Shown piece by piece: positions 2,929 to 23,778 of a DNA stretch of 25,142 bases; the first letter of the stretch is position 1; each line of letters opens with the position of its first letter. Origin of the DNA: a virus; the IMG/VR virus record IMGVR_UViG_3300043449_000129, positions 1 to 25,142 of that record, one strand, 5' to 3'. The notes beneath the pieces are model-generated. The model had not been told where the DNA came from. It saw nothing but the letters and a program-made list of their open reading frames with translations, and made no database searches. Made by a program: the position numbers and the translations under genes.

Positions 2929-3445
2929 CAAGTACATACAATGTAATTACGACGAGGTAAGAAGATACACAAACTACTTCCTCGTAAGAATGAACAGCCA
3001 TATAGACGCGGACACAGTTATCAACAACTCTTATTTACACGTTCTAAGCATAAACGACGATACTGCTTGTGAGGAAAAAGTAAAATCTTACCTTCTAAAC
3101 ACAATCAAATGCCAGGTTTTATGGTCTACAAGTCAGTCAAACAATGACGATAGAGTAACGGCAATCGAAGAAGGAAAACAACAGGACTGCGAAAACACGG
3201 ATTTAGAATGGAAAATTCAGTTAGAAGAGCAGTACATATTAAAAAAATCTATCATAGAGATATATCGAAATAGTATAAACGATAGAATTAAGCAAATTAT
3301 CTTCGAAGCATATTACGACAAAGGCTTAACTACTCAGAAGGAACTAAGTCAGTACTTCAATATCTCAATGACTGCTGCTCATTTCTTAATCAAAGAGATA
3401 AAACAAGGCATAAAAGAAATTCAATATAGTTATGACACACGCTAA
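2912..3445 (+). CDS. Phage sigma-70-like (ECF-type) factor
   Basis: A 177-residue protein with the length and layout of a small sigma factor. Residues 10-75 are helical, with DEVRRYTNYFLVRM and DADTVINNSYLHVLS resembling sigma region 2. An acidic linker follows, then residues 124-170 (RIKQIIFEAYYDKGLTTQ, ELSQYFNISMTAAHFLIKEI) look like a region-4 helix-turn-helix, where T-x-x-E-L-S-x-x-F-x-I-S-x-x-A is the expected turn. It would direct host RNA polymerase to phage promoters. The gene stands just before the terminase and late genes, several of which carry AATATAGTT at their starts. Alternatively it is a DNA-binding protein with a sigma-like fold only, since region 2 is weak. Confidence 0.6.
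   Translation: MKAVLDKYIQCNYDEVRRYTNYFLVRMNSHIDADTVINNSYLHVLSINDDTACEEKVKSYLLNTIKCQVLWSTSQSNNDDRVTAIEEGKQQDCENTDLEWKIQLEEQYILKKSIIEIYRNSINDRIKQIIFEAYYDKGLTTQKELSQYFNISMTAAHFLIKEIKQGIKEIQYSYDTR
3423..3431 (+). promoter_or_regulatory. AATATAGTT start-codon motif, copy 1
   Basis: AATATAGTT directly abuts the ATG at 3432, inside the last codons of the sigma-like gene. The same nine bases precede starts at 6333, 10595, 12942 and 19360, with a one-mismatch copy at 16754. Confidence 0.7.
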
Positions 3446-3602
3446 TTTACTTGCAACACTTGCTTTTTTTACTGCCGTCTTTGGTGGTTTTGCTTTAATG
3501 CTTAATCATATGGAGTTATTCCGTGTTTTTGGAGGGTTATTTATAGTGTTGTGGTGTTTATTTAAATTAGCATTAGAATTAGAGAATTATGAAAAGGATT
3601 AA
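3432..3602 (+). CDS. Small membrane protein (56 residues), unknown
   Basis: A short open frame in what would otherwise be a gap between 3445 and 3589. It encodes MTHANLLATLAFFTAVFGGF, a short turn, then FRVFGGLFIVLWCLFKLALE and a charged tail ENYEKD. Two membrane helices of about 20 residues are clear. It overlaps the sigma-like gene by 14 bases and the next gene by 14 bases, the same spacing style as its neighbours, and has the AATATAGTT motif before its start. It may act at the membrane, for example as a superinfection or host-takeover protein, but nothing in the sequence decides this. Confidence 0.72.
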   Translation: MTHANLLATLAFFTAVFGGFALMLNHMELFRVFGGLFIVLWCLFKLALELENYEKD

Positions 3603-3831
3603 ATTAGAATACATAGATAAAACTATCGTACAAAAAGACGGAATCTTAGGAAACCGCAAAATAGTAGTAGCTACTATAGACCCTACTAAATATTCTTATT
3701 ACGTTTCTATTGGACTTGGTTATCTTTTCGAAGATGCTACGATAAAATATGTAGGCATAGAACAAGAAACGCCTGTAGAAGAAGTTAAACCTATAAAAAC
3801 ACGAAGAAGAAATGCCAAGACCAAAAAGTGA
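3589..3831 (+). CDS. Small basic-tailed protein, unknown
   Basis: An 80-residue protein with a beta-rich body (IKLEYIDKTIVQKDGILGNR, then VVATIDPTKYSYYVSIGLGY) and a C-terminal proline/lysine/arginine tail ending RRRNAKTKK. I recall similar small proteins near terminase and head genes of Flavobacterium phages. The basic tail could bind DNA or be a processing region. It overlaps the next start by 20 bases. No enzyme motif seen. Confidence 0.7.
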   Translation: MKRIKLEYIDKTIVQKDGILGNRKIVVATIDPTKYSYYVSIGLGYLFEDATIKYVGIEQETPVEEVKPIKTRRRNAKTKK

Positions 3832-4294
3832 CGAATCACGTAAAGAGTTTATGGAAAGATGTATGGCAGACCCTGAGTCTGTAAATACTTTCCCGGATGC
3901 AAGTCAAAGATATGCCGTATGTAATTCAGTTTGGACTACCGATAGAATGACATCAATGAGTAAATTCTTAGACGCATACGCAGAAACTTATAACGACTAT
4001 CCTAAACAAGCTACTGAAAATGCAAAAATAGCGTTAAGATGGGCAGAAGAAAATGGATGGGGTGACTGCGGTACTCCTGTAGGTAAAATGAGAGCTAACC
4101 AATTAGCAAACGGAGAAGCTATTTCTGAGGACACTATTGCGAGAATGGCAGCCTTTGAAAGACATAGACAAAACTCCGACAAAGAATTAGGCTATGGATG
4201 CGGTCGTTTAATGTGGTTAGCTTGGGGAGGTGACGAAGGAATAGAATGGGCGCAACGTAAACTTGAACAGATAAGAAATGAAAAAGCAAACTAA
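3812..4294 (+). CDS. Phage protein with head-maturation-associated domains
   Basis: A 160-residue protein in two parts. Residues 1-41 (MPRPKSDESRKEFMERCMAD, then DASQRYAVCNSVW) match a short motif often found at the start of phage protease or portal-associated proteins (P-x-P-x-x-E-x-x-x-E-F-x-x-R-C, then Q-R-x-A-V-C). Residues about 50-155 form a second domain with ENGWGDCGTPVGKMRANQLA, FERHRQN and LMWLAWGGDEGIEWAQRKL. In other phages as I recall, this domain occurs within or next to head-maturation proteins. Here it stands alone, about 13 kb from the protease. It contains several conserved-looking Cys and Trp residues. Biochemical role unknown. Confidence 0.68.
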   Translation: MPRPKSDESRKEFMERCMADPESVNTFPDASQRYAVCNSVWTTDRMTSMSKFLDAYAETYNDYPKQATENAKIALRWAEENGWGDCGTPVGKMRANQLANGEAISEDTIARMAAFERHRQNSDKELGYGCGRLMWLAWGGDEGIEWAQRKLEQIRNEKAN

Positions 4295-4406
4295 CGTAAC
4301 GGCACATCTTAGGAAAACACGAAAAAAAAGACCTAAGCAACACTCAAAAAGCTCAAAGCTAAAAACAAGTAAAAGATATATAAAACTAAATAGAGGTCAA
4401 GGATGA
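4278..4406 (+). CDS. Very basic 42-residue protein
   Basis: A short frame fills the interval between the 3812 gene and the 4403 gene. It reads MKKQTNVTAHLRKTRKKRPK and ends RYIKLNRGQG. About 40 percent of residues are Lys, Arg or His, with few hydrophobic ones, as in nucleic-acid-binding or packaging-associated peptides. It overlaps the gene before by 17 bases and ends in ATGA with the next start, as expected for a real coupled gene. I recall similar basic peptides (VTAHLRK near the start, G-Q-G at the end) in Flavobacterium phages. Confidence 0.72.
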   Translation: MKKQTNVTAHLRKTRKKRPKQHSKSSKLKTSKRYIKLNRGQG

Positions 4407-4594
4407 GAAACGAAGATTTAAGGTTCTTTTTAATAGACACCGGTGTTGACGTGCAGAACTATTGTCAATACGTATGCGACAAGCTACAAAAAGACGGACA
4501 CCACTATCTATTATATCTAAGTGACCAACCTAACTTATTCTGCATAGAAGAAATATCAGAAGACGAATTTTTTAAACACGTAAAAAATGGCTAA
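4403..4594 (+). CDS. Small acidic protein, unknown
   Basis: A 63-residue protein, MRNEDLRFFLIDTGVDVQNY, later HHYLLYLSDQPNLFCIEEIS and a charged end. It has an alternating helix/strand pattern and no motif I recognise. Its ATG overlaps the TGA of the basic peptide, and its end overlaps the small terminase start by 8 bases, so it is translated with the packaging genes. Confidence 0.68.
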   Translation: MRNEDLRFFLIDTGVDVQNYCQYVCDKLQKDGHHYLLYLSDQPNLFCIEEISEDEFFKHVKNG

Positions 4595-5021
4595 TAAAGG
4601 AAAACCCCGAAACATAGATAGTCCCGAAGAACTATATAACCTTTTTGAACACTATTCAATAGACTGCAAAAGTAGAATAAGACGGATCCCAAAAGCAACA
4701 GTAAAAGGAGTAGTATACGAAGACCATATACCACCATTAACAATAGACGGCTTTAAAACCTACTGCAACAAAAATAACAAAGACATAAACCGATATTGGT
4801 ATAACATTGAAAATAACTTTCAAAATTTCGTAACCATCGTTACGCGCATTAAGGAAGAAATACGAAACGACCAAATAGAAGGAGCGATAGTAGGTCAGTA
4901 TAACAACAATATCGTTGCAAGGTTAAACGGCTTAAAAGAAAACTCTGACGTCACTACAAACGGCAAAGAGATAAACGAAATTAAGATAAACATAATCAAA
5001 GGTGACAATAAGGGAAGTTGA
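4587..5021 (+). CDS. terS: Terminase small subunit (gp3-like DNA-packaging protein)
   Basis: A 144-residue protein. The N-terminal NIDSPEELYNLFEHYSIDCK and IPPLTIDGFKTYCNKNNKDI fit the gp3/TerS-type DNA-packaging proteins of Bacteroidota phages, where S-P-E-E-L-x-x-L-F precedes P-L-T-x-x-G-F helix-turn-helix-like DNA recognition. A helical middle (FQNFVTIVTRIKEEIRNDQI) and the RLNGLKENSD segment match the oligomerisation region of these subunits. It recognises the packaging site and loads the large subunit. The large terminase follows after one very small gene, which supports the assignment. Confidence 0.82.
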   Translation: MANKGKPRNIDSPEELYNLFEHYSIDCKSRIRRIPKATVKGVVYEDHIPPLTIDGFKTYCNKNNKDINRYWYNIENNFQNFVTIVTRIKEEIRNDQIEGAIVGQYNNNIVARLNGLKENSDVTTNGKEINEIKINIIKGDNKGS

Positions 5022-5025
5022 CCAG

Positions 5026-5163
5026 ATGTGTCAAGTAGTAGAAGCGTTCATTCTAAAGAAGAAAGGTGAGCGCGTCACTATAAACCGAACTTCCGTAATT
5101 ATGGATGTGCGACAGCTTCAGATGTTACTACACGCTTTTAACGTAGCAAATGGAAATAAATAG
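5026..5163 (+). CDS. 45-residue basic protein between terminase subunits
   Basis: A short frame that fills the gap between the terminase genes: MCQVVEAFILKKKGERVTIN, then SVIMDVRQLQMLLHAFNVAN. It starts four bases after the small terminase stop and overlaps the large terminase start by 14 bases in another frame. A strand followed by an amphipathic helix is likely. No function known; position suggests a packaging-related or regulatory peptide. The overlap and absence of other coding content make it probable. Confidence 0.6.
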   Translation: MCQVVEAFILKKKGERVTINRTSVIMDVRQLQMLLHAFNVANGNK

Positions 5164-6301
5164 TACAATCATATTCGAGAAAAATTGGAGCGCACTACAA
5201 GAAAATAGAGTGCGTTTTGTTATTAATGAAGGGGGTTCTCGTTCAAGTAAGACTTATTCGCTTTGTCAAATGATAATCGTTTATTGTTTGCAAAATCCTA
5301 ACAAAGTAGTCAGTATAATTCGTAAGACCTTCCCCGCTTTGAGAGCAACGGTAATGCGTGACTTCTTAGAAATACTAAAAGACTTAGACATCTACGAAAA
5401 GACGAACCACAATATGAGCGAAAACATCTATAGGTTTCCTAACGGAAGTATAGTAGAGTTCTTCTCAGTAGATGACGAACAAAAGATAAGGGGACGTAAA
5501 AGAGACATCGCTTGGTGTAACGAAGCAAACGAACTATACTACGATGACTTTACTCAGTTAAATATGAGAACGGAGACAAAGTTAATTTTTGATTACAACC
5601 CTTCAGATAGTTCAAGTTGGTTATACGAGTTACCAAAAGACGAATCAATACTAATCAAGTCCACTTATAAAGATAACCCATTTCTACCTGAAACTATAAA
5701 ACGTCAGATAGAGGACTTAAAACGAACTGACGAAGCCTTATATCAAATTTACGCACTCGGAGAAAAAGCCATTAGCAAATCTAACATCTATTCTAATTGG
5801 ACATTCATAACGCATAGACCCGCTAAATTTACTTCTTATGTCTATGGCTTAGACTTTGGATATAATCACCCTACTGCCTTAATGCGTGTCTATTGGCGTG
5901 ATAACGATATTTTCATTGAGCCTGTTATTTACGAGTCTTATTTGACTACTACGAACCTAATCGAGAAAATGAAGATTCTAAACATAGAAGAGAACGTGGA
6001 GATACTTGCCGACTACTCAAGACCTGAAATAATACAGGAAATGAACAACAGCGGTTTTAATGTTCTAAATGCTAACAAGGTAGTTAAAAAGGGTATTGAC
6101 AATGTAAAGACCTTCGGAGTGTTTTGTCAAGATATACCCTACTTAAAAAAGGAATACGAGAACTACAAGTGGAAAAAGATAGGCGACAACATAACTGACG
6201 AACCTATCAAGTTATATGACGATGCTATGGATGCTGTGAGATATGCGACTACGTACATAAAAGAAAACTATTACACAGACGATAGCTACATAGCCTTCTA
6301 A
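5150..6301 (+). CDS. terL: Terminase large subunit
   Basis: The 383-residue packaging motor. Walker A is GGSRSSKT at 28-35, with adjacent RKTFPALRATVMRDF typical of the arginine-containing motif in phage terminases. The Walker B region is DIAWCNEANE, giving the catalytic Glu. The C-terminal RNase H-like nuclease shows GLDFGYNHPTA (first Asp), LADYSRPE (second Asp) and DDAMDAVRYA (last Asp). This is the PBSX/phage_term_2-type arrangement, complete in both ATPase and nuclease halves. It cuts concatemers and pumps DNA through the portal. The portal, normally next in order, is 13.4 kb downstream here. Confidence 0.95.
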   Translation: MEINSTIIFEKNWSALQENRVRFVINEGGSRSSKTYSLCQMIIVYCLQNPNKVVSIIRKTFPALRATVMRDFLEILKDLDIYEKTNHNMSENIYRFPNGSIVEFFSVDDEQKIRGRKRDIAWCNEANELYYDDFTQLNMRTETKLIFDYNPSDSSSWLYELPKDESILIKSTYKDNPFLPETIKRQIEDLKRTDEALYQIYALGEKAISKSNIYSNWTFITHRPAKFTSYVYGLDFGYNHPTALMRVYWRDNDIFIEPVIYESYLTTTNLIEKMKILNIEENVEILADYSRPEIIQEMNNSGFNVLNANKVVKKGIDNVKTFGVFCQDIPYLKKEYENYKWKKIGDNITDEPIKLYDDAMDAVRYATTYIKENYYTDDSYIAF

Positions 6302-6323
6302 AAACACGAATAAAAACGCTTTT

Positions 6324-6332
6324 AATATAGTT
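6324..6332 (+). promoter_or_regulatory. AATATAGTT start-codon motif, copy 2
   Basis: The nine bases directly abut the ATG at 6333 in the 31-base gap after the large terminase. Upstream bases are TTT. Possible phage late promoter or initiation signal. Confidence 0.7.
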
Positions 6333-7820
6333 ATGGCAATATCAATAATCGCAGAACCACAAGATTTCACTCCAGCTTATAACGAGTGTAAATTCATAAT
6401 AGATAGCACTAACGTAAACAATCAAGGCTTCAGGTATATCTTCGACATATACGAAAGCGGAACGTCTAACAAAATAGCTGAATATAGAATCCTTCCGGAT
6501 ACAAATGGCTATGGAGAACAAGACCTATCTAAACTTTTAAGTAGCCAAGTAAGCTATAACTTTAATCCGTCTATTACTACGTTCTACGATGCGGATAACT
6601 GCTACTACAAATACGACGTTAAGTTTGGTGAGGAGTATCTAACTAAGACTTCTTACACGTCTTCTTTAACGAATAGTTCCGGGAACGTAAGAATAAACGT
6701 ATCGAACACTTTTGTAGTAGGTGACCAAGTAGTTATCTATCAAACAGACGGAGGATTAGCGAATCCAACATTAGAGGGTTTACATACTGTTATCGCTCAA
6801 GGTGTAGGTTATTTAGTAGTAGACGCGCTTTGGTCAGATGTAACGGATGCAACTATTGACGGAGATGTTTTGTATGCTGACAATCGAAAGACTATTACAA
6901 GGGACATAACTACTACTTTAGATAAATATGTTTTCAATGGAGCGGTTAAATGGGTAGACTTTCCGTTTTACGATAACACGGATTATGTACTCGATAACAC
7001 TAACGCTTTATTCCTAACCAACCAACCTTTAAGCTTTCATTGTACATTAGGCCAAGACCTTTGGTTAAACCTACGCGACAACGGAGTAAAAGTAAACGAA
7101 AGAGTTTACTTCGAAAATAGCAACGGAGATGTTTTCTACAAGTCTATAAGTGGTGACGAATATATAAAAGGTGTAGCAGTAGGCTGTAACAACTTCGGCA
7201 CGTTAACTTTGGTTTCAGGAACTGCTGGACTAATAAAAGGCGATACTGAATATTACGATGTTTACTATGCGGATTCTTTAGTTATAACGCAACGTAGCGC
7301 GAAATATAGAATTTATGTAGATAGACGAATACTAATATCTGAAACACACATTTTGTTTTTAGATAGAATGGGTAGTCTAAGTAGTTTTGCTTTTCAGCTT
7401 AAAAACTATGAACGCGGAAACATCACGCGAGAAACTTACAACAAGGATGTTCAAGGTTTTGTTAGTGGTGGCGAGTGGTCTTATAAGACTTATGAACAAG
7501 GCTTCGTTAATTACAATACTCAAGTCACTAAAGACTACGACTTGAACACGAATTGGATGACTGAGAACGAGGGTATTTATTTCCAAGAATTACTTACGTC
7601 ACCACAAACGTGGGTAAAGAACGTAACTTACCGAATCACGGAAGACTTACTAAATAGATACGACGAAACTGGTTGTATTATACGCATACCTGAATCTACC
7701 GAGTATTTAAGTTGTAATGTATTAACAAACAACTTCGAAGTATTTAAGCAACGAAATAAGAACTTGATTAAACAAAGCATTTCAGTAAGGTTATCAAATA
7801 ACGACATAATCAATGGTTAA
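6333..7820 (+). CDS. Virion protein, probable distal-tail/baseplate component
   Basis: A 495-residue beta-rich protein with no signal peptide or membrane helix. The N-terminus (QDFTPAYNECKFIIDSTNVN followed by IFDIYESGT) is of a type recurrent in Bacteroidota phage tail modules. A later segment, FLDRMGSLSSFAFQLKNYER, and the ending NLIKQSISVRLSNND also fit that type. It lies before the hub-like protein and tape measure and overlaps the former by 8 bases, so a Dit-like ring or hub adaptor is the best guess. No enzymatic motif was seen. Confidence 0.62.
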   Translation: MAISIIAEPQDFTPAYNECKFIIDSTNVNNQGFRYIFDIYESGTSNKIAEYRILPDTNGYGEQDLSKLLSSQVSYNFNPSITTFYDADNCYYKYDVKFGEEYLTKTSYTSSLTNSSGNVRINVSNTFVVGDQVVIYQTDGGLANPTLEGLHTVIAQGVGYLVVDALWSDVTDATIDGDVLYADNRKTITRDITTTLDKYVFNGAVKWVDFPFYDNTDYVLDNTNALFLTNQPLSFHCTLGQDLWLNLRDNGVKVNERVYFENSNGDVFYKSISGDEYIKGVAVGCNNFGTLTLVSGTAGLIKGDTEYYDVYYADSLVITQRSAKYRIYVDRRILISETHILFLDRMGSLSSFAFQLKNYERGNITRETYNKDVQGFVSGGEWSYKTYEQGFVNYNTQVTKDYDLNTNWMTENEGIYFQELLTSPQTWVKNVTYRITEDLLNRYDETGCIIRIPESTEYLSCNVLTNNFEVFKQRNKNLIKQSISVRLSNNDIING

Positions 7821-10581
7821 AATCGTATTAGAAAACGGAACGCTTGACATTAGAGAAGATGTTAAGTTTCCTTTGAATTTTAGTATAGGAGATATTAGGG
7901 ACATATCCAAAAGAACGGGAACATTCTCAAAGACTATTATCGCTCCCGGTACTAAGAACAATCACGAGTTATTAGGGCATTACTACGATGTAAATATTCA
8001 GTCGGGGACATTTAACATAAACACTATTACAAAGTGTCAAGTAATTCAAAACGGAGTTCCTGTATTAGAAGATGCGTTGATTCAATTAACAGGTGTTATA
8101 AAGAAGCAAAACACGAACGCCTACGAAGACGAAGTTAACTACGAATTGTTAATAAAAGATTCTAAAGTTGAGTTCTTCACTCAGATAGCAAACAAGGAAT
8201 TAACGGATTTAGATTTCTCAGATTTAAACCACACTTTAGATAGTGCCTTTGTAGTTAGTTCTTTTAGCAACTCAGTAGCTGACGGATATAAATACATCCT
8301 TCCCTATTCAGATGACAACACGTATAGACTAAACGAGTTTAAACCGGCTATTTACGCTAAGACGTATTTCGATAGGATATTCTCAAATGCTGGTTTCTCT
8401 TATACGTGGAATGGACTTCAAGACGCTAAGTTTGATAAATTACTAATTCCTTACAATGGCGATGTTGAACAAGCGAATGTAGATTCTTACAAGGTAATTG
8501 CTAATAATACGTGGACTACTTCGTATGTAAGTCCTATAGGGCAAAATCCTACGTTCTACGAGGTTATAGATTCGTGGACTGAGGTGTTAGATTCAGCGGG
8601 TTCTTTCGACCCTATTACCGGTGTTTATACTGCGCCATTATACACGGACACTACGCAAGGTCAATACTATAATTTTAAGCTATCTTACACGGCTGACATT
8701 AACTTAGATAATACAAGTGGTGGTAATGCTTATTCAATACTTTCTTTTTCTAATCAAGGTCAATCAGTAGATAGATACTATTATTTGAGATTTAGGCTAA
8801 TAAAAAACGGAACAACAGTAGTAGGACAATACATACATTCAGGTGTATTATTTGATGCTACGAATCCACTACCAAACGGACTAAATACAATCGGTACTAT
8901 TTCGCAAGTTGTTAACATTCCTACAAGCCAAAATATTTTACCTACTGACACAATAGAAGTTCAAGTTGGATTAGGTTTCTTAGCTGCGGGTGTTTCATTT
9001 TGGCGCGATGCTGCTGCTCCTTCGATAGGGAATTTAGTTCAAGTAAACCACGAGGTAGATGTTACGAGTTTACAACTTGACATATTACCTAATAACGCTC
9101 CGAACTTATACAATGGAGTTGTAGCTGTAGGAGGGTATGTTCCTTCAAAGATTAAGCAAAGTGACTTCGTTAAGTCTATATTTCAGATGTATAATTTGTA
9201 CGTAGAAATAGACGAAGACCAACCTAACAACCTAATCTTAGAACATAGAGATAACTACTACGATAATGGAGCGGTAAAAGATTGGACTTATAAGTTAGCA
9301 AAAGACCGAGAACAAAACCTACAATTTTTACCTGAAGTTACTTCTAAGAAATTAAGACTTACTTACAAAGCTGACAAGGATAGTCCTAACACGATATTTA
9401 CTGACATTACTAACGAGATTTACGGACAAATAGAATACACTTTCGATAATGAGTATGTTCGAGATACTGACGTTAAAGAATTGGTGTTTAGTCCTACGCC
9501 TATAGTAAGAACTATTTTCGATGCGTATGTCCCTAATATTGCGGGTGCTGCTCCAAAGATTAACATTCGTGTTTTGTTAGACGGAGGAAACTTGACTTGT
9601 CTGCCTTACGATATTTACGATGTTGAGTTTCCTAACACGCCTTCTTTAAACATAGGCACTACAGGACTAACTACCTATCCAGCTGTAGGGCATTTCGACA
9701 ACCCATTACTACCGACTTTCGATATTAACTTTGGAACGTGTGACTATTACTATTACGCACCTTCTACGCTTACGAATAACAATCTTTATAACTTATATTG
9801 GCGAAGAACTATAAATCAAATAAACGTCGGTAAAATGCTTACTGCGTATTTCGATTTAAATGAGTTAGACATTCAGTCATTAAGGTTAAACGACAAAATA
9901 CGGATTGATAATTCTTGGTGGAATATCAACAAAGTGATTGACTACGATGCTAACGGGACATCGTTAACCAAAGTAGAGTTGATAAGTGTAGATAGTGAGA
10001 TTGAGTTAGTTCCATTTCAGACGGGTAACGGAACGCCATTAGAAGACACGATAGTTGCGGTGAGTAGTGATAGCGTTGTAAAAACACGAACACAACAAAG
10101 TAACGTAATCTTAGGTAACGCAGACGTAAAAGGAAGAGGTAACGTAATAGGACAAAACGTAAAAGCTGTAGTAGAAGGTAACGGACAAGCCTTAGCAGAA
10201 GACGGAATAACAACAAAGAATCTGCAAGTAGAAACCATAAACGGACAAAGCGTATCTAATGCTTTACCTACCTATAAAAAATACATAGCTAACATTAGTC
10301 AAACTGGAACTAATGACCCTACGTTAAGCATACTTGAAAATGATTTAGGCGATTTAGTTTTTACTCGTGCTGCCATAGGTAGATATGAAGCTACGTTAAC
10401 GGGTGCTTTCCCTACTCAGGGACAAGTTTACTTAATGGTTTCAAATAGTCAAGTAGATACTTATTTAAGAATCTTTTGGACTTCTACGGACACTATCGAA
10501 ATACGGACACTTGATTTCACCAATACGTTAACCGATGGTTTATTAGATTATAATACTTTAGAAATACGTGTCTACCCTTAA
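7813..10581 (+). CDS. Tail hub/tip protein with C-terminal fibre-like domain
   Basis: A 922-residue protein. Residues 1-130 (DIREDVKFPLNFSIGDIRDI, RTGTFSKTIIAPGTKNNHEL) match a start I associate with Bacteroidota phage tail hub proteins. The middle is a long beta-rich body. Around residues 770-820 comes a repeat-like stretch (ILGNADVKGRGNVIGQNVKA, VEGNGQALAEDG), possibly a short beta-helix or collar. A separate final domain of about 100 residues begins YKKYIANISQTGTNDPTLSI and may bind a receptor. The role would be the Tal-like tip joining the tail tube to fibres. It is followed by the tape measure gene after 13 bases. Confidence 0.68.
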   Translation: MVKIVLENGTLDIREDVKFPLNFSIGDIRDISKRTGTFSKTIIAPGTKNNHELLGHYYDVNIQSGTFNINTITKCQVIQNGVPVLEDALIQLTGVIKKQNTNAYEDEVNYELLIKDSKVEFFTQIANKELTDLDFSDLNHTLDSAFVVSSFSNSVADGYKYILPYSDDNTYRLNEFKPAIYAKTYFDRIFSNAGFSYTWNGLQDAKFDKLLIPYNGDVEQANVDSYKVIANNTWTTSYVSPIGQNPTFYEVIDSWTEVLDSAGSFDPITGVYTAPLYTDTTQGQYYNFKLSYTADINLDNTSGGNAYSILSFSNQGQSVDRYYYLRFRLIKNGTTVVGQYIHSGVLFDATNPLPNGLNTIGTISQVVNIPTSQNILPTDTIEVQVGLGFLAAGVSFWRDAAAPSIGNLVQVNHEVDVTSLQLDILPNNAPNLYNGVVAVGGYVPSKIKQSDFVKSIFQMYNLYVEIDEDQPNNLILEHRDNYYDNGAVKDWTYKLAKDREQNLQFLPEVTSKKLRLTYKADKDSPNTIFTDITNEIYGQIEYTFDNEYVRDTDVKELVFSPTPIVRTIFDAYVPNIAGAAPKINIRVLLDGGNLTCLPYDIYDVEFPNTPSLNIGTTGLTTYPAVGHFDNPLLPTFDINFGTCDYYYYAPSTLTNNNLYNLYWRRTINQINVGKMLTAYFDLNELDIQSLRLNDKIRIDNSWWNINKVIDYDANGTSLTKVELISVDSEIELVPFQTGNGTPLEDTIVAVSSDSVVKTRTQQSNVILGNADVKGRGNVIGQNVKAVVEGNGQALAEDGITTKNLQVETINGQSVSNALPTYKKYIANISQTGTNDPTLSILENDLGDLVFTRAAIGRYEATLTGAFPTQGQVYLMVSNSQVDTYLRIFWTSTDTIEIRTLDFTNTLTDGLLDYNTLEIRVYP

Positions 10582-10584
10582 TTT

Positions 10585-10593
10585 AATATAGTT
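10585..10593 (+). promoter_or_regulatory. AATATAGTT start-codon motif, copy 3
   Basis: The motif begins 3 bases after the hub gene stop and ends one base before the ATG of the tape measure gene at 10595. Confidence 0.7.
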
Positions 10594-10594
10594 T

Positions 10595-12472: not shown

Positions 12473-12912
12473 CAAGTTACCAAGCCTTAATAAATAAGAT
12501 TGAAGCATTTTACAACGCACACCTACAGGTTAAAAAAGTAGGTAGTGACTTCAAAGAGCAGTTGTTTAATTTTGCTACGAAAGACGAAAAATATCCGATT
12601 ATCTATATCGTTCCTGTAGGAAGTACACCAACCGAAAACACGAATATATTTTCTTTAGAGATATATTGCTTTGATATAATACAAAAAGATAGAGCAAACA
12701 TAAACGTAATTCTAAGCGATTGCAATCAAATCTTAGTAGACTTAGTTAACTATTTTAGATTCTCAAATGATTATGATTTCGACATTGTTACCGACCCGGT
12801 ATTTACTCCATTAAATAACGACTTATTAGATTATGCTGCGGGGTGGTTAATGACTTTAGACGTAGATGTTTCTAATTGGACTGATTGTCAAGTTCCATTA
12901 GAAGGTGAGTAA
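12469..12912 (+). CDS. Probable tail terminator/completion protein
   Basis: A 147-residue protein coupled by ATGA to the tape measure. The pattern NIFSLEIYCFDIIQKDRANI, then LSDCNQILVDLVNYF, then PLNNDLLDYAAGWLMTLDVD fits the alpha/beta tail-terminator fold (lambda gpU-like). In this fold a strand carrying phase information is followed by a long helix and a final strand with W-x-x-x-L-x-V-x. Terminators cap the tail tube and join it to the head. It is a family-level guess from layout and context. Confidence 0.6.
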   Translation: MTSYQALINKIEAFYNAHLQVKKVGSDFKEQLFNFATKDEKYPIIYIVPVGSTPTENTNIFSLEIYCFDIIQKDRANINVILSDCNQILVDLVNYFRFSNDYDFDIVTDPVFTPLNNDLLDYAAGWLMTLDVDVSNWTDCQVPLEGE

Positions 12913-12931
12913 CAAAACACGAAATTAAAAT

Positions 12932-12940
12932 AATATAGTT
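12932..12940 (+). promoter_or_regulatory. AATATAGTT start-codon motif, copy 4
   Basis: The motif lies one base before the ATG at 12942 in a 29-base gap. The gap also contains AAAACACGAA, as does the gap before the gene at 6333. Confidence 0.7.
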
Positions 12941-12941
12941 A

Positions 12942-13682: not shown

Positions 13683-13692
13683 TAAAAGACGA

Positions 13693-13965: not shown

Positions 13966-13967
13966 TT

Positions 13968-14786
13968 ATGTATGGTTACGGCAATAGTATGTTTTTAGCA
14001 ACGCACGGAATTTTAGCAAGGTCAGGAGGAGGAGGAGCTTCCTTACTCCTTGACACATATACAGGAGCAGCAGTTGCTTATTCATTAAGGCAATTAAGAA
14101 CAGCATACACAGGAGCAGCAATAAGAGTAAGAAGGTCAAGTGATAACGCAGAGCAAGATATTAACTTTGTAGGGGGTGATTTGGATACTTCGTCTTTGCT
14201 TTCATTTGTAGGTGCTGGTAATGGATTCATAACAACTTGGTACGACCAAAGTGGGAATGCTAATAATGCAATAAAAACAACAGCAGCCTTACAACCAAGA
14301 ATAGTTAATTCAGGTTCTTTAGTAACTGAAAATGGAAAAGTTGCAATTAATGATTTTGTTGGTACTACAAATTATCATTTAACATTAACAACTGCGGTAG
14401 CAGGAACTGATGTGTATTCATTTAATGTTATAAAATACAATGGAACACTGAATTCTTTATTTAATGCTCAAGTAAATGGAACATATGTCTTAGTTGGTCA
14501 AGCTGGTGGGGGTATTCCTGTTACATCTGCAGTAACAGCAACTTATAGGCAAAATGGCTCATCAATAACTTATGCAACAAGAAATGGCGTTGCAACTAAT
14601 TTAGCAAATCAAACACTTGTTACTATTGATATGAATAACTCAAGTTGGACTCAATTCAACATAGGTTATCGTAGCACAGGGATATCAATGTATAAAGTAC
14701 AAGAAATTGTTATTTTTAACTCAGACCAAAGTGCTAATGAAGTTGGTATAGAAACAAACATTAATGACTATTATTCAATCTACTAA
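13968..14786 (+). CDS. Adhesin with arabinofuranosidase-B-like lectin domain
   Basis: A 272-residue protein. Residues about 25-115 (YTGAAVAYSLRQLRTAYTGA, IRVRRSSDNAEQDINFVGGD, TTWYDQSGNANN, QPRIVNSG) follow the concanavalin-like fold of the alpha-L-arabinofuranosidase B catalytic family (A-Y-S-L-R-x-L-x-x-A-Y-x-G, R-x-S-x-D, W-Y-D-Q-S-G). In phages it is found in tail or receptor-binding proteins, probably as a glycan-binding or glycan-cleaving domain. The rest resembles LamG-type beta-sandwich. Catalytic activity is not assured. CpG is about an order of magnitude rarer than in the fibre gene upstream (6 by eye in 14041-14760), suggesting a recent horizontal exchange of the receptor-binding gene. 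Confidence 0.75.
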   Translation: MYGYGNSMFLATHGILARSGGGGASLLLDTYTGAAVAYSLRQLRTAYTGAAIRVRRSSDNAEQDINFVGGDLDTSSLLSFVGAGNGFITTWYDQSGNANNAIKTTAALQPRIVNSGSLVTENGKVAINDFVGTTNYHLTLTTAVAGTDVYSFNVIKYNGTLNSLFNAQVNGTYVLVGQAGGGIPVTSAVTATYRQNGSSITYATRNGVATNLANQTLVTIDMNNSSWTQFNIGYRSTGISMYKVQEIVIFNSDQSANEVGIETNINDYYSIY

Positions 14787-15016
14787 TGGAAATAACAGGC
14801 TACAAATATACGAACGAACAGGACGCAATAAACGCAAGAAAGGCTTGCGCTGATTATTATGGTTTACCAGTTTCACCTGAAGATGTTACTCAATATTGGG
14901 TAGACTATGAAATAGCAGAACTTGATAATCCTATATTTTGGTACATTGTCTTTGATGAAAGCATTAGAGTAATATTAGGAGAACCTACACAATTTGAAGT
15001 AACAACGGAGGAATAA
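14786..15016 (+). CDS. Small tail-module protein, unknown
   Basis: A 76-residue acidic protein (EITGYKYTNEQDAINARKAC, then YYGLPVSPEDVTQYWVDYEI). It starts within a TAATG overlap after the adhesin and ends in another TAATG with the next gene. I recall similar proteins next to fibre genes in Bacteroidota phages, perhaps as chaperones or adaptors for the adhesin. Function not known. Confidence 0.68.
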   Translation: MEITGYKYTNEQDAINARKACADYYGLPVSPEDVTQYWVDYEIAELDNPIFWYIVFDESIRVILGEPTQFEVTTEE

Positions 15017-15462
15017 TGGCAAGGTACGCAAATAACGGAATATTTTACGTCAAGTATAAGACGCGATTAAAGATTCAAAAATTACTACAATCTTTGATTC
15101 GTGAATACGATGCTATTGACACGGGTGCTTTGTACGAGTCAGTTCGTATAAACGCAGAAATACCCGCTTTAGGAGAGTTGAATATTCAGATTAACGCGAT
15201 GTATTACTTTGGATTCTTAAACAACGGAGCGAACTTATGGAATGGCGGAGTAATAGCGTCTTATGATTTCTGCGCTAAGTTAACCGACTTAATGAATAGT
15301 AGCGGTGTAAGTGCTGAGATATTCGACCAATACACCGAGTGGATGACGCAACGTTATCCTTTACTACAAGTAGCTACTATCTTAGGAGAAAAGCGAAGTA
15401 TAATCTACTCATTTAATCCTATCGGTGGGGAGTTCTTAGGAGCGTTGTCTTTTAAAGGTTAA
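15016..15462 (+). CDS. HK97-gp10-like tail completion protein
   Basis: A 148-residue protein. DAIDTGALYESVRIN matches the D-T-G-x-L-x-x-S motif of HK97 gp10-like proteins, followed by INAMYYFGFLNNGANLW, corresponding to the A-x-Y-x-x-x-x-N-x-G segment. These proteins help join tail and head or complete the tail. The final residues overlap the end of the convergent minus-strand gene by 11 bases, so two transcription units collide here. Confidence 0.68.
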   Translation: MARYANNGIFYVKYKTRLKIQKLLQSLIREYDAIDTGALYESVRINAEIPALGELNIQINAMYYFGFLNNGANLWNGGVIASYDFCAKLTDLMNSSGVSAEIFDQYTEWMTQRYPLLQVATILGEKRSIIYSFNPIGGEFLGALSFKG

Positions 15463-16189
15463 GTTCCTTTTTCATAGATAACATATTAAACACAAATATT
15501 AACGACAAATCGAAGGCTTGACTTATCTTAGTCAGGTCTTCGTTGCATATAGTATAGAGTAATCTTTCCCAAGACCATTTTTTAATCTTTTGTTCTTCTT
15601 GGATTTCTTTCTTTTCTTCTGGTGTTAGGTCTTTAGTATCTTCTTCGGTTTCTTCTTCTTCAAATTCGGGTTCAAAAAGGTTAGCGTAAGTCTTCATAAA
15701 GTTATCTCTAAAAGACAAATACTCTGGAATGATTCCGTAAATGTGTGGTATTGGTATTTCGTCAAATAGATACGCCCTATCAAAAGGCGAATAAGTATAA
15801 GGTTCGTAAATGGTTTCTTTCCATTCGTTTTTTTTCGTCTTTTTGTAACATATAGCAGCTATCTCAGAAATATTTTCTATGTAGTCTTTGCTAAAGAAAT
15901 ACTCTATATCTATAAACTCCCCTAAAGTTAGCTTATTAAACTCCTTAAAATGCATCTTAGCTACTTCTAATTTATACTTCTTAGGTGGTTCTGAGTTTAT
16001 CCACTTGACTTTGTTCATAAACTCTTGAATCTCGTCAACGTCGTAGTCTTCTAAGTCTTCAGATGGTAGACCCGTGAGCGTAGCTAAGGCTTCTATTTCA
16101 CGAGAAAATAGTTCCGGTATATCTTTTAGTGTACGAAGTTCTTTAAATTGTAGAACGTCTATATCATTCCACGACTTCGGCAGTAGCAT
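15452..16189 (-). CDS. Probable tail assembly chaperone, second gene
   Basis: A 245-residue protein from ATG at 16189; a TTG two codons earlier is less likely. MLLPKSWNDIDVLQFKELRT, then REIEALATLTGLPSEDLEDY, LTLGEFIDIEYF, an acidic coil (EEEETEEDTKDLTPEEKKE), and LLYTICNEDLTKISQAFDLS near the end. This order, including the final aromatic/Leu helix after D-L-T-K, resembles proteins I associate with the tail chaperone slot of Bacteroidota phages. It overlaps the first chaperone-like gene by 26 bases in another frame. Being on the minus strand, apart from the tape measure, is odd. Classification is by layout only. Confidence 0.52.
   Translation of the reverse strand: MLLPKSWNDIDVLQFKELRTLKDIPELFSREIEALATLTGLPSEDLEDYDVDEIQEFMNKVKWINSEPPKKYKLEVAKMHFKEFNKLTLGEFIDIEYFFSKDYIENISEIAAICYKKTKKNEWKETIYEPYTYSPFDRAYLFDEIPIPHIYGIIPEYLSFRDNFMKTYANLFEPEFEEEETEEDTKDLTPEEKKEIQEEQKIKKWSWERLLYTICNEDLTKISQAFDLSLIFVFNMLSMKKELNL
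15454..15472. terminator. Weak hairpin at the convergent gene ends
   Basis: AAAGG at 15454-15458 can pair with CCTTT at 15466-15470 around a seven-base loop, followed by T to 15472. It lies over the two overlapping stop codons. The stem is only five pairs, so activity is uncertain. Confidence 0.28.
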
Positions 16190-16709
16190 TTTCAATTTGT
16201 TTAGAGAATTTTTGTCCTATGTAAACTAAATAAGGAACTGCAACGGCAGCTTTTTGTTCTCTAAATAATTTAGCCTTGTGTTTGATGTGTGCTTTGTCGT
16301 AGTGTTCTACTTTAGATAAGTCAGTTCTTTTAAATAGAACGGCAATAAGTTCGCTTAAATAACCTTTGTGTTTAGAGTTAATTATTTTCTCTATTACTTT
16401 CATATCTTTTACCGATAGCTTAAACTCTTCCTCGTGTGACTTGTATGTATATCCGTCTATTTCTATTTCTTTGATTATATCCGCGTCAGTTTTTTGGTTA
16501 AATTCCTGTACATATTTCTTGAATGTTTCAAAGTCTATGTCAGCTTCTACCATTTCGTCTTCACTTACTCCTAAAAGTTCAAATACTTTGATATGCTTTT
16601 CGATTATATCTAAAGACGAATCGTTGTGTATCTCTGTAATATCCTCAAATTGCTGAATAGTTAACTCGTCTAACTGATTCGGGATTTGTTTTCCTAAAAT
16701 TTCTATCAT
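16164..16709 (-). CDS. Probable tail assembly chaperone, first gene
   Basis: A 181-residue protein using ATG at 16709; a GTG 24 bases upstream lies across the promoter -7 region, so I reject it. It begins MIEILGKQIPNQLDELTIQQ with FEDITEIHNDSSLDIIEKHI and LLGVSEDEM next, similar in arrangement to the start of the second gene (L-T-x-x-x-F, then L-x-G-x-x-x-D). The two may be diverged relatives, as expected for gpG/gpT-like chaperones that shield the tape measure. A promoter stands directly upstream. The frames of the two genes differ by +1, so a classical -1 frameshift fusion is not supported. Confidence 0.5.
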   Translation of the reverse strand: MIEILGKQIPNQLDELTIQQFEDITEIHNDSSLDIIEKHIKVFELLGVSEDEMVEADIDFETFKKYVQEFNQKTDADIIKEIEIDGYTYKSHEEEFKLSVKDMKVIEKIINSKHKGYLSELIAVLFKRTDLSKVEHYDKAHIKHKAKLFREQKAAVAVPYLVYIGQKFSKQIENATAEVVE

Positions 16710-16721
16710 AATTTTTTTTAA

Positions 16722-16754
16722 CAAATATAACACACTTTTTAATATAGTACAAAA
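16722..16754 (-). promoter_or_regulatory. Host-type promoter for the minus-strand pair
   Basis: On the minus strand TATATTTG at 16729-16722 matches TANNTTTG exactly, with TTTG at 16753-16750 and a 20-base spacer. The expected transcript start is near 16714-16718, five to nine bases before the ATG. The -33 element abuts the ATG (16754) of the divergent protease gene. Confidence 0.72.
16741..16749 (+). promoter_or_regulatory. AATATAGTT-like motif, copy 5 (one mismatch)
   Basis: AATATAGTA ends four bases before the ATG at 16754. It occupies the spacer of the minus-strand promoter, so one stretch of DNA serves both divergent units. Confidence 0.55.
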
Positions 16755-17743
16755 TGAGTAAAGATTTACCTATCTATAAAATCACAATCGACCCTGAATA
16801 CTCCGATGGAGAAGATTTAGGAATCGAGCAAATCGCATTCACTTCAACACCGGCTATTAAAGTTAAAGGTATGGCGTTTAATCAAGCGCAGTCTTTCTTT
16901 TTTGCTGACGCTACTAAATACCGAATCGTTGCACCCGCTATGATTCCAATGGAGATTTATAGACGCGATGACGAAAGCGGTGAGTATTATGTTCAATTTA
17001 CCGAAGAGGTAATAGAGCAAATCTACACGAAGTTTATGCGTGACTTAAACAATAGAGATTTATTTAACTTAGAACACGAAACCGAGAAAACTGTTCCCGC
17101 TTATATCCTTGAATCTTGGATAGTTGAAAAACCACGAGAAGACAAGTCTTATACAAGCTACGGAATAGAAGTCCCAAAAGGTACTTTGATGTTGACTGCT
17201 CAAGTTACCGACGTTGACTACTACGAGAAATTAGTAAAAGACGAACAAATAGGTTTCTCTATTGAAGGTTTTTTAGGTCTGAAACTAAGTAATCAAATTA
17301 AATTAAATACAATGAAGTTACCAGACGGAGAACATTTAATCGAAGGTAAAATCTACGTAGTAAAAGACGGAGAAATTATCGAGGTTAAAGAACAAGAAAT
17401 GGCTGAAACTCAAGTTGAGGAGGAAGTCAAAGAAGAGGTTGCTATGGCAGAAGACGTAGTAGAAGAAGAAGTAAAAGAAGAAACAACCGAAGAGCCTACT
17501 GAAGAAGTTGTAGAAGAGGCTATGGCTGTTGACCCTACAACTGACGCTGAAGCTATCTTAGCTATCGTTAAACCTATGATTGAAGAACAAGTTAATTCTT
17601 TACTTGCTATTATCGCAGACTTGAAGAACCAAGTTGAAGAGCGTATAATGGAAAAAGAAGAAGAAGAAGAAGTTATCGAAGAGGTTAAAATGTCTGCATT
17701 CGATAAATTCAAAGCATTTCGTAATACTTTTAAAAACCAATAA
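16754..17743 (+). CDS. XkdF-like prohead protease with scaffold-like tail
   Basis: A 329-residue protein. Residues 1-183 resemble XkdF-type phage serine protease domains: IEQIAFTSTPAIKVKGMAF, FNLEHETEKTVPAYILESW (candidate catalytic His108) and IGFSIEGFLGLKL (candidate Ser169). Residues 219-260 are almost all Glu and Val (VEEEVKEE occurs twice), followed by a helical coil to about 312 and a basic end SAFDKFKAFRNTFKNQ. The acidic coiled tail plus basic end is the usual shape of a capsid scaffold, so protease and scaffold are probably joined in one polypeptide that removes itself after assembly. The major capsid gene follows after two bases. Confidence 0.8.
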   Translation: MSKDLPIYKITIDPEYSDGEDLGIEQIAFTSTPAIKVKGMAFNQAQSFFFADATKYRIVAPAMIPMEIYRRDDESGEYYVQFTEEVIEQIYTKFMRDLNNRDLFNLEHETEKTVPAYILESWIVEKPREDKSYTSYGIEVPKGTLMLTAQVTDVDYYEKLVKDEQIGFSIEGFLGLKLSNQIKLNTMKLPDGEHLIEGKIYVVKDGEIIEVKEQEMAETQVEEEVKEEVAMAEDVVEEEVKEETTEEPTEEVVEEAMAVDPTTDAEAILAIVKPMIEEQVNSLLAIIADLKNQVEERIMEKEEEEEVIEEVKMSAFDKFKAFRNTFKNQ

Positions 17744-17745
17744 AA

Positions 17746-18675
17746 ATGAATCGTAAATTAAAATTCGACTTAGACGTTGAAACTAACGCACTTTTGTGTG
17801 CGAATCCTGAAGAGTTTTACTCTCGCGCTTATTTAACTGATACTACTGCGGACAACTTCCGTACACTTCCAGGTATCAAGTCAGCTACTAAATTAGCTAA
17901 CGTAACTTTCGGTAACATCTTACAAGCATCTACTTGTAACTTCTCTGCTCCGACTGATACATTGAACGCTATCGACATCGATGTATGTCCTTTGTCAGCT
18001 ATGGCACAAATTTGTCAGTTTGACCTTGAGCAATCTTTCTTAGCTTTACAAATGGCTAAAGGTTCTAACGGAGATTTTACTGTTGCTTCTTTTATGTCTT
18101 ACTATTGGGACACTATGTCTAAGCAAATTGGTGAAGACGTTGAGTTATTGAGATGGCAAGGTGACACTACATCTGAAAGTGCTATCCTTTCTTTGTGTGA
18201 TGGTCATTTGAAGAAACTTTGTGCTGACGCTGACGTAGTAGGTCAATACGGAGGTGCTGTTACTTCTTCTAACGTACTTTCTACGCTTGAAGGTGTTTGG
18301 GCTGCTGCTCCATCTACAATCAAATTCAAAAAAGGAGATTTAAGATTTTATGTTTCTGCTAACGTTGCTCAAGCTTACGAATTGGCTGCTGCTTCAGGAA
18401 ACACTCAAACTTATGTAACTCTTCCTTTAGGATTGACTTTCTTAGGTATTCAAATGGTAGTTGCTGAAGGTATGCCGGATAACACTATCGTGTTGACTTT
18501 GAAAAACAACCTTATCTACGCATTTGATGCTGAAGGTGATGCTAAAGCATTGAAAGCTGTTAACCTTTCTGACACAGTTGCTGAGCCGTACATCCGTACA
18601 AGAGCGAACTTGAAAGTAGGTTTTTACCATACAAATCCATCTGAAATCGTAGTTTATAACGTTTGTTTCGATTAA
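17746..18675 (+). CDS. Major capsid protein (HK97-fold)
   Basis: A 309-residue protein placed directly after the protease-scaffold. There is a helical/loop N-terminus (FYSRAYLTDTTADNFRTLPG), then SATKLANVTFGNILQASTCN, a long helix-rich body (GEDVELLRWQGDTTSESAIL), and a final beta region (GLTFLGIQMVVAEGMPDNTI, LIYAFDAEGDAKALK, YIRTRANLKVGFYHT) as in HK97-fold capsid proteins. Codons favour GCT, ACT, TCT and GGT more than neighbours, consistent with high expression, and a strong terminator follows. Seven Cys residues are noticeable for a capsid protein and could matter for stability. Confidence 0.85.
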   Translation: MNRKLKFDLDVETNALLCANPEEFYSRAYLTDTTADNFRTLPGIKSATKLANVTFGNILQASTCNFSAPTDTLNAIDIDVCPLSAMAQICQFDLEQSFLALQMAKGSNGDFTVASFMSYYWDTMSKQIGEDVELLRWQGDTTSESAILSLCDGHLKKLCADADVVGQYGGAVTSSNVLSTLEGVWAAAPSTIKFKKGDLRFYVSANVAQAYELAAASGNTQTYVTLPLGLTFLGIQMVVAEGMPDNTIVLTLKNNLIYAFDAEGDAKALKAVNLSDTVAEPYIRTRANLKVGFYHTNPSEIVVYNVCFD

Positions 18676-18695
18676 TAAACATTATTTCATAGGTA

Positions 18696-18727
18696 AGGGG
18701 TGGTGACTAATCGCCACCCTTTTTTTT
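18696..18727 (+). terminator. Intrinsic terminator after the capsid gene
   Basis: GGGTGG at 18698-18703 pairs with CCACCC at 18714-18719 around a ten-base loop, followed by eight T to 18727. Confidence 0.9.
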
Positions 18728-18749
18728 GAAACTTTAAAAAATAAAATAT

Positions 18750-19271
18750 ATGTCTTGCGCAACATTACAAACAATCACAAAATCGTGCGACAATAATTCC
18801 GGAGGAATTTACACGTTGTACGTAAACCAACAAGATAATATCGCATCTATTACAACTGACGAAACAGGGACTAATTGGATTGTTGATGGAATCACTTTAA
18901 CTGACCCTTTAGATGTATTCGTTCCTATCGAATTTAGAAGAAACGTAGGTTCTTATACTGAAGAAGCAAACATCGACTTGATAAATGGTTCTTCTTACGT
19001 TACTCAGACTATTAACTTGATGTTACATAGAAGAGACCAAGAGAAATCAAAAGCTATTAAAGTTATGGGTGCGGGTCAACAATACTTAGCTGTTATCGTA
19101 GGAGACGCTAATGGCAAGTTTTGGTACTTCCCTTATATGCAAGTAACTGCTGTAGGTGAAGGTTCGGGAACAACTCGTGCAGATGGTTCTAAATATTCTT
19201 TGACTCTTACTGCTGAGAATGAATTTTTAGCTTACGAGGTTGACTCTACTATCATAGCGGGTCTATTGTAA
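18750..19271 (+). CDS. Major tail tube protein
   Basis: A 173-residue beta-rich protein. Its length and fold pattern fit tail tube proteins: GIYTLYVNQQDNIASITTDE, VFVPIEFRRNVGSYTEEANI, LMLHRRDQEKSKAIKVMGAG (helix), then YLAVIVGDANGKFWYFPYMQ, with a closing beta segment GSKYSLTLTAENEFLAYEVD. It starts 22 bases after the T-run of the capsid terminator and is followed by its own terminator, the layout of a gene whose product is needed in many copies. A T-rich -33-like and TATATG sequence upstream is a weak promoter candidate. A capsid decoration protein is a less likely alternative. Confidence 0.7.
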   Translation: MSCATLQTITKSCDNNSGGIYTLYVNQQDNIASITTDETGTNWIVDGITLTDPLDVFVPIEFRRNVGSYTEEANIDLINGSSYVTQTINLMLHRRDQEKSKAIKVMGAGQQYLAVIVGDANGKFWYFPYMQVTAVGEGSGTTRADGSKYSLTLTAENEFLAYEVDSTIIAGLL

Positions 19272-19291
19272 TCTGTTTTCTCTCCATAATT

Positions 19292-19319
19292 AGCCACTCT
19301 TTTCGGGGTGGCTTTTTTT
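19292..19319 (+). terminator. Intrinsic terminator after the tail tube gene
   Basis: AGCCAC at 19292-19297 pairs with GTGGCT at 19308-19313 around a ten-base loop, followed by seven T. Confidence 0.88.
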
Positions 19320-19348
19320 GTTTTAAACAAATACAAGAATATACTTAT

Positions 19349-19357
19349 AATATAGTT
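19349..19357 (+). promoter_or_regulatory. AATATAGTT start-codon motif, copy 6
   Basis: The motif ends two bases before the ATG at 19360, downstream of a terminator, so some promoter must lie between 19314 and 19360. A weak host-like pair (TTTG near 19317-19320, TATACTTA near 19340) is also present. Confidence 0.65.
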
Positions 19358-23751: not shown

Positions 23752-23778
23752 ATTTGTACTTTCATAATGTGTTAATTA

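Follow-up and report, generated by a model that had tools for sequence, protein, structure and literature searches.

Bacteriophages T4 and SPO1 use small phage sigma factors (gp55 in T4, gp28 and gp34 in SPO1) to redirect the host RNA polymerase to their late genes, and the late mRNAs of both phages have leaders with ribosome-binding sites. The consensus of promoters read by extracytoplasmic function (ECF) sigma factors comprises an AAC-containing -35 element about 16-17 bp ahead of a CGT-type -10 element. For Bacteroidota, the housekeeping promoter is described with TTTG at -33 and TAnnTTTG at -7 (PMC6847099). Here we analyzed the virus record IMGVR_UViG_3300043449_000129, a stretch of 25,142 bases from an uncultured tailed phage that is called the window throughout, in which the short motif AATATAGTT stands directly ahead of several start codons. 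Comparison with related phages makes it probable that these sites are sigma-dependent late promoters, read by a phage ECF-like sigma factor and giving leaderless or near-leaderless mRNAs.

The start-adjacent motif in the window and in related phages

The window contained exactly five exact copies of AATATAGTT, at 3423, 6324, 10585, 12932, and 19349, all on the plus strand and none on the minus strand, and an ATG followed after 0, 0, 1, 1, and 2 nt, respectively. The variant AATATAGTA was present at 16741, 4 nt upstream of the ATG at 16754. These placements, the single-mismatch copy, and the lack of further exact copies had been reported in the initial annotation and were all reproduced. The putative -10 cores are:

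3423..3431, plus strand, -10 core AATATAGTT before ATG 3432, within the 3'-terminal part of the sigma-like ORF
6324..6332, plus strand, -10 core AATATAGTT before ATG 6333; orthologous starts in several other clades carry variants
10585..10593, plus strand, -10 core AATATAGTT before ATG 10595; no AAC at -20 to -23, the exception in the window
12932..12940, plus strand, -10 core AATATAGTT before ATG 12942
16741..16749, plus strand, -10 core AATATAGTA before ATG 16754
19349..19357, plus strand, -10 core AATATAGTT before ATG 19360

Five of the six genes follow a gap of 13-88 nt (the neighbor of 16754 is divergent), as expected from the earlier remark that genes with the motif are mostly preceded by a gap. 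The exception is gene 3432, which starts within the 3' end of the upstream open reading frame (ORF) 2912-3445.

In 100 dinucleotide shuffles of the window, exact AATATAGTT occurred 1.02 times on average, close to the single chance copy that had been predicted, and at most four times. When one mismatch was allowed, 21 matches were found and 22.5 were expected, so that the excess was confined to the exact form. We also scanned every 8-mer located 0-6 nt before an ATG, without supplying the motif. The top start-adjacent 8-mer of the window was AATATAGT, with 6/6 copies before an ATG (p 5e-7; best value in 30 shuffles, 6.5e-5). It was likewise the top 8-mer in each of the five near relatives. All six copies preceded an ATG in G001, a relative of 30,460 bases that is probably complete, given its 127-base end repeat; the proportions in the four other members of the clade were 6/7, 6/7, 6/8, and 6/7. 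The excess of copies away from start codons, which had been named as a possible refutation, was thus absent. AATATAGTT contains no GGAGG-like purine-rich stretch complementary to the 3' end of 16S rRNA, as would be needed for a Shine-Dalgarno sequence.

Related stretches were collected by capsid (595) and terminase (542), and the best 80 of each set were compared. In the fetched loci, which include overlapping loci of the same contigs, 131 of 155 plus-strand copies had an ATG 0-2 nt downstream, while each of nine control 9-mers reached at most 4. Orthologous starts in relatives, many at 40-65% protein identity, carried related yet different letters, and in a comparison by clade each genome mostly used a single version ahead of unrelated late genes. 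The versions were TAATATAGTT in the clade of the window (6 genomes), TACAATATAGGT in 7 genomes (some sites ending in GTT, GGC, or GGG), TTAATATTGTT or close to it in 5, TATAATATAGTT or close to it in 3, TTAATATA-type in 2, TTAATAT[AT]-type in 3, CATTAT[AT]G in 1, CTATTNT-type in 1, and CCATTATAA in 2. Because the motif changed in concert across unrelated genes of a genome, one trans-acting reader of the motif per phage is probable. A looser core gave 5-16 copies per genome, 0-7 of them before an ATG, and missed sites with differing clade letters. The 10595 orthologue lacked the motif in the clade of seven genomes.

Three relatives (G008, G010, and G029) have ATA in place of ATG after the motif copy in the 3' end of the sigma-like gene, with the next ATG slightly downstream. 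The motif is thus retained there without the small ORF, although the same letters also code for the C-terminus of the sigma-like protein.

Two Bacteroidota phages chosen by terminase similarity, Flavobacterium phage filifjonk9-1 (best p 8e-4) and Parabacteroides phage PM682P6 (6e-4), had no start-adjacent 8-mer beyond the null, and the device is therefore not general among such phages.

The upstream AAC element, terminators, and the predicted transcription start

The initial annotation had noted neither an upstream half at -21, nor clade variants, nor a sigma-like gene. We anchored 140 sites from 30 genomes on the core and reduced them to 45 non-redundant sites (cut at 70% identity over 30 nt), among which some homologous sites remain and at least one site of G004 is doubtful (loose pattern). 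The clade patterns behind the 140 sites were written after the versions were known, so conservation of the core is partly by construction; the AAC was unselected. AACA lay exactly at -21 from the core in 25/45 sites and at -20 to -22 in 32/45, while all other positions from -32 to -3 had 0-2 occurrences each. Relative to the start codon, AACA was found 29-34 nt before the ATG at 101/140 motif starts (33/45 non-redundant), compared to 60/1149 other starts in the same genomes. An AAC was present at 36 of the 45 sites, at distances from the ATG of 29 (3 sites), 30 (18), 31 (10), 32 (3), and 34 nt (2).

In the window alone, one 4-mer stood at one offset in 4/6 sites, a coincidence that 2000 draws of six gene starts produced 11 times and 2000 draws of random positions never. 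Four sites read AACA-N17-AATATAG, one has N19, and one (10585) has no AAC. The candidate -35 elements are:

3402..3405, plus strand, AACA, 17 bp before the core
6303..6306, plus strand, AACA, 17 bp before the core
12911..12914, plus strand, AACA, 17 bp before the core
16720..16723, plus strand, AACA, 17 bp before the core
19326..19329, plus strand, AACA, 19 bp before the core

As judged from sequence, AAC and core together have the geometry of a -35/-10 promoter. The family sites carry the AAC-type -35 at the ECF-like spacing of about 16-17 bp. For the CGT-type -10 the picture is mixed: the family of the window has AATATAG, ATTATAA, and similar letters, and the cultured phage P12024S, described below, has CGTTAATA.

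Predicted intrinsic terminators place a boundary on one of these units:

18695..18722, plus strand, intrinsic terminator after the capsid gene
19292..19313, plus strand, intrinsic terminator (hairpin and T tract), shortly ahead of the promoter at 19326-19357
23778..23796, plus strand, intrinsic terminator downstream of the final gene in the plus-strand run ending at 23751

For the 19360 orthologue, a hairpin followed by a T tract starting 35-46 nt before the ATG was present in 28/28 genomes with a mapped start (2 of the 30 had none mapped), a count made without a shuffled control. The promoter of the 19360 unit must therefore fit into this interval, with little or no leader. A start site at or beside the A of the ATG is likewise expected from the AAC, which precedes the ATG by 29-34 nt. 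Distance and terminator together point to leaderless 5' ends at the AUG, while the assignment of these genes to a late class follows from gene content.

The sequence context of the starts was also distinct. A occurred at -12 with a frequency of 0.18 at motif starts and 0.60 at other gapped starts, and at -3 with 0.20 and 0.53, the latter difference being partly by construction as the core occupies -9 to -1. In Flavobacterium johnsoniae, an A at -3 is reported to favor initiation (PMC6847099).

Between the capsid gene and gene 18750 stands a strong terminator (region 18675-18750), and expression of 18750 may depend on read-through. If so, the capsid level would be set above that of 18750.

The candidate reader and competing explanations

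The ORF in which the first of these starts lies is the candidate for the reader of the motif:

2912..3445, plus strand, phage sigma-like protein of 177 aa with predicted helical domains at 2-72 and 97-176 and a low-confidence linker at 74-95

It was found in all 36 records searched, which were hand-picked from the longer contigs of the capsid and terminase searches. An AlphaFold2 model built from 11 sequences (predicted local distance difference test 80.2, predicted template modeling score 0.41) showed two helical domains, and at moderate confidence this predicted model has the ECF-type architecture of sigma2- and sigma4-like domains joined by a linker. The top rows of a Foldseek search were mostly sigma factors, many of them ECF (best E 1.4e-3; SigL, E 2.6e-3; SigE, E 2.1e-2). 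Sigma factors also dominated the top VIA-align rows, the first three of which included the C-terminal domain of sigma-H (Z 9.1, root-mean-square deviation 2.0, 73 residues) and SigE region 4 on -35 DNA (Z 8.4, deviation 2.5, 69 residues). A tblastn search with the protein found no relative among 50,697 phage records. From the predicted fold and the presence of the gene in every record searched, the ORF is the likely reader of the motif.

A distantly related cultured phage, Nonlabens phage P12024S, shares the layout as far as its sequence tells, with different -10 letters. Its gp33 matches Pfam Sigma70_r2 (E 1.4e-5, 25.2 bits, cutoff 24), in agreement with its annotation, and is encoded after recombination and replication genes, with three genes between it and the terminase. 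Phage P12024L carries a 98.7% identical copy of this gene. The top start-adjacent 8-mer of P12024S was CGTTAATA, with an ATG within 6 nt in 6/7 copies (p 7.2e-6; best value in 30 shuffles, 8.2e-5); these six comprise five gene starts and one chance minus-strand copy, and the start at 179, bearing CGTTACTA, is the sixth gene start. GTTA[AC]TA occurred 26 times on both strands. Six copies had an AAC at -20/-21, and all six had an ATG at exactly +11; the remaining 20 had neither AAC nor ATG at those offsets. The AAC thus lies 31-32 nt ahead of the ATG at these six sites. They precede the genes at 179 (beside the capsid homologue), 3031 (beside the portal gene), 5412, 23961, 25201, and 26802, most of which are annotated as hypothetical, and the P12024S record annotates no promoters. 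Three annotated minus-strand ORFs with TATATTTG lie opposite late sites in this phage.

In the explanation we favor, AAC(A)-N17-AATATAGTT would be a phage late promoter with AATATAGTT as its -10 part. RNA synthesis would start at, or a couple of bases from, the A of the ATG. The ECF-like sigma factor, from the gene at 2912-3445 that terminates at the first of these starts, would bring the host RNA polymerase to the sites, and the virion genes would be translated from leaderless or near-leaderless mRNAs. Sequence comparison supports a signal of two parts in phase with the ATG, its concerted change between clades, the terminator at one unit, and the sigma-like gene in all records searched. From these we infer that the protein recognizes this DNA and acts late, and that the mRNAs begin at the AUG. 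That the sites are promoters is the firmest part, followed by the leaderless end, with the identity of the reader third.

Several results weigh against this explanation. The AAC is missing at 10585 and at several sites of clades B and C, and the orthologues of 6333 and 10595 lack the motif at their starts in three clades (the G018, G019, and G016 groups), in which motif copies precede other genes instead. Gene 18750 follows a terminator and has no motif in the 26 rows inspected by eye. AATATAG lies mostly 2 nt from the ATG, in tension with the 4-5 nt between the -7 element and the start site described for F. johnsoniae (PMC6847099); perhaps TAATAT, at 4 nt from the ATG, serves as the working -10, or the spacing is shorter. 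Other points concern the reader. Foldseek gave no match below 1e-3, and sequence searches of 11 members against Pfam, PHROGs, and PDB yielded no sigma family, for which reason we name the ORF sigma-like and do not class it as an ECF member. The Z values of the VIA-align rows are such as chance can give to helical models, according to a warning of the tool. An hhalign profile comparison detected no relation between gp33 and the sigma-like family of the window, and the two proteins may be very distant or unrelated. We also compared motif distance with protein distance for 17 proteins in up to 20 genomes. The sigma-like protein (rho 0.61) ranked fourth, tied with the fifth, behind 12469 (0.72), 16754 (0.67), and 19710 (0.62), and on 12 shared genomes it reached 0.39 compared to 0.59 for 16754. 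Co-evolution of motif and sigma-like protein was rejected as support, since this protein was not singled out among the 17.

Some of these points would fit a late promoter that the host sigma factor reads with the help of a phage activator, a role that the 2912 ORF might or might not fill. There is partial resemblance between the core and the host -7 element TAnnTTTG, from which TAATATTG of clade C is one position off; in addition, no sequence profile identifies the ORF as a sigma factor, and it does not stand out in the comparison of motif divergence. However, the motif has clade-specific versions with AAC where the host has TTTG, the predicted fold has two ECF-like domains, and P12024S encodes a protein with Pfam sigma region 2 at a comparable position, so that we consider this alternative unlikely. 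The initial annotation had offered two readings, and its late promoter with leaderless mRNAs gained from the AAC phasing, the terminator, the clade variation, and the sigma-like gene, while leaderless 5' ends and lateness are still only inferred. Its other reading, an unusual ribosome-recruiting signal, leaves the second element at a fixed DNA spacing unexplained. Such an mRNA signal, replacing Shine-Dalgarno and used by a phage or host factor, would fit the position of the motif 0-2 nt before the ATG, and a role in translation was suggested for the similarly placed start-associated sequences of cluster K mycobacteriophages by their authors (PMC3203893). It is nevertheless improbable: an element phased 21 nt upstream and letters that vary by phage clade are not expected of it, a promoter of 19360 would have hardly any other place once the T tract at 35-46 nt upstream is considered, and called genes of the window that overlap the previous stop lack the motif, 3432 excepted. 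Cutting of long late transcripts just ahead of each ATG would likewise yield mRNAs that begin near the AUG, and the genes with the motif are mostly collinear. An AAC at fixed spacing and a terminator just upstream of one unit speak against such RNA processing, which we rate slightly lower still.

A compact AT-rich core beside the start resembles the promoters of single-subunit polymerases, and three window proteins of 495, 922, and 625 aa without a Pfam match could be candidates for a phage-encoded RNA polymerase. All three are encoded within the packaging and tail block, however, the largest called protein outside the packaging/virion block of G001 has 313 aa, and the early-side proteins tested fall into replication, recombination, methylation, and reductase families; a phage polymerase is thus highly improbable. 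Chance repeats in AT-rich DNA would account for the single-mismatch count, which equals expectation. They do not account for exact copies that all lie at starts, for divergent relatives whose orthologous starts keep clade versions, or for a score beyond 30 shuffles. With the control 9-mers and the 8-mer scan in relatives added to the clade versions and the shuffles, we regard chance as refuted, with a next to negligible probability.

Beyond the sigma-dependent late promoter as such, the joint reading is that promoter and start codon are fused throughout the family. An ECF-like sigma factor would set the start on the A of the AUG for most late units, and leaderless mRNAs would serve for the virion proteins in hosts (probably Bacteroidota) whose own mRNAs mostly have leaders, which would give late genes an initiation route separate from that of host and early phage genes. 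We propose this tentatively, as a serious possibility that falls somewhat short of being probable.

Genome context and comparison with known systems

Of 29 fetched relatives, twelve measured 28.7-30.9 kb and carried end repeats (91-127 bases), which suggests a genome size of about 30 kb. The gene order of the window is exonuclease, small ORFs, ORF 2912-3445, packaging genes, large proteins that match no family, a protease-like gene, capsid, portal, and amidase. In the phage collection, capsid and portal matched the Nonlabens phages P12024S and P12024L alone, at about 24-25% identity, and the terminase matched 1003 records, with phages of Parabacteroides and Flavobacterium at the top (32-34%). 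Because the nearest capsid, portal, and terminase matches are phages of Bacteroidota, a host from this phylum is likely. A scan of genome contigs for the host matched one contig of a metagenome-assembled genome and gave no host.

Sequences of the host housekeeping type were found at two places:

16722..16729, minus strand, host-type TATATTTG (fits TAnnTTTG), 12 nt before the minus-strand start 16709, divergent from the late promoter
23865..23872, plus strand, host-type TATATTTG, after the terminator at 23778-23796 and 25 nt before the start 23898

In G001, TATATTTG stands 23-25 nt ahead of two early-side starts, and 12 nt ahead of the minus-strand start divergent from the 16754 orthologue. TAnnTTTG was hardly in excess (38 against 31.7 in single-base shuffles for the window, 50 against 40.1 for G001), so that it is suggestive only by its position at a few starts. 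Of the 13 plus-strand matches in the window, none lay at the six motif sites. A generic sigma-70 scan was uninformative: it gave 44 and 32 promoter-like sites in two window segments that overlap, and about 43 were expected in each. The placement suggests that early and divergent genes use the host sigma factor and leaders. The minus-strand TATATTTG overlaps AACAAATATA of the 16754 late promoter, and two minus-strand genes (15452-16733) lie within the otherwise plus-strand region, divergent from 16754.

A second start-adjacent repeat, ACCTTTAAATCAGAATAGA or ..AATAAG, is present at 995-1003, 1314-1322, 1546-1554, and 1776-1784, before the ATGs at 1007, 1326, 1558, and 1788. Owing to this repeat, three of the four ORFs upstream of it end in FKSE. 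Five of the nine clades include genomes in which ATGs are preceded by nearly identical letters, in contrast to the late motif. The repeat could serve as a signal in translation, or as a recombination linker by which small genes are swapped.

If our explanation is true, sequence alone suffices to read how a large group of uncultured phages controls its late genes (sigma factor, promoters, and regulon). It would also provide a natural case of leaderless translation across a regulon, probably in Bacteroidota, where such mRNAs are uncommon and initiation without Shine-Dalgarno sequences is still being worked out. A cultured phage of the same layout makes the idea testable. Taken singly, each element is of a known kind. 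A limited search of the literature on phage sigma factors and leaderless mRNAs did not find a family-wide phage sigma regulon fused with start codons.

Among the known systems, the predicted protein resembles ECF (group 4) sigma factors in its pair of region 2- and region 4-type domains. The promoters share with theirs what we take to be an ECF-like pattern, an AAC-type -35 and a spacing of about 17 bp, with CGTTAATA of P12024S possibly close to the CGT-type -10. In contrast to ECF sigma factors, the window protein is phage-encoded and unseen by sequence profiles, and its promoter is fused to the start codon. Unlike the late promoters of T4 and SPO1, the window sites leave little or no room for a leader. 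In Bacteroidota, leaders in F. johnsoniae average 33 nt and 87% of predicted transcripts have leaders of more than 10 nt (PMC6847099), and about 3.7% of the 5' untranslated regions described for Bacteroides thetaiotaomicron are shorter than 10 nt (PMC7366714). The phages may use the housekeeping-type TATATTTG at a few early or divergent units, while the late sites carry AAC and AATATAG. The start-associated sequences of cluster K are, like the window motif, short repeats a few nt from starts and mostly in one orientation, but as described they precede non-structural genes and contain AGGAG, which is absent from the window motif with its mostly virion-region genes (PMC3203893). The late promoters reported for phages AR9 (AACA-6N-TA/G) and phiKZ (TATG, start at the G) are also short and AT-rich, but are attributed to phage multisubunit polymerases, and AR9 leaders measure 26-491 nt (PMC5312081). 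Phage P12024S combines a Sigma70_r2 gene near the terminase with AAC..GTTAATA/GTTACTA..ATG sites as in the window, and differs in its -10 letters and in capsid and portal proteins that are only distantly similar.

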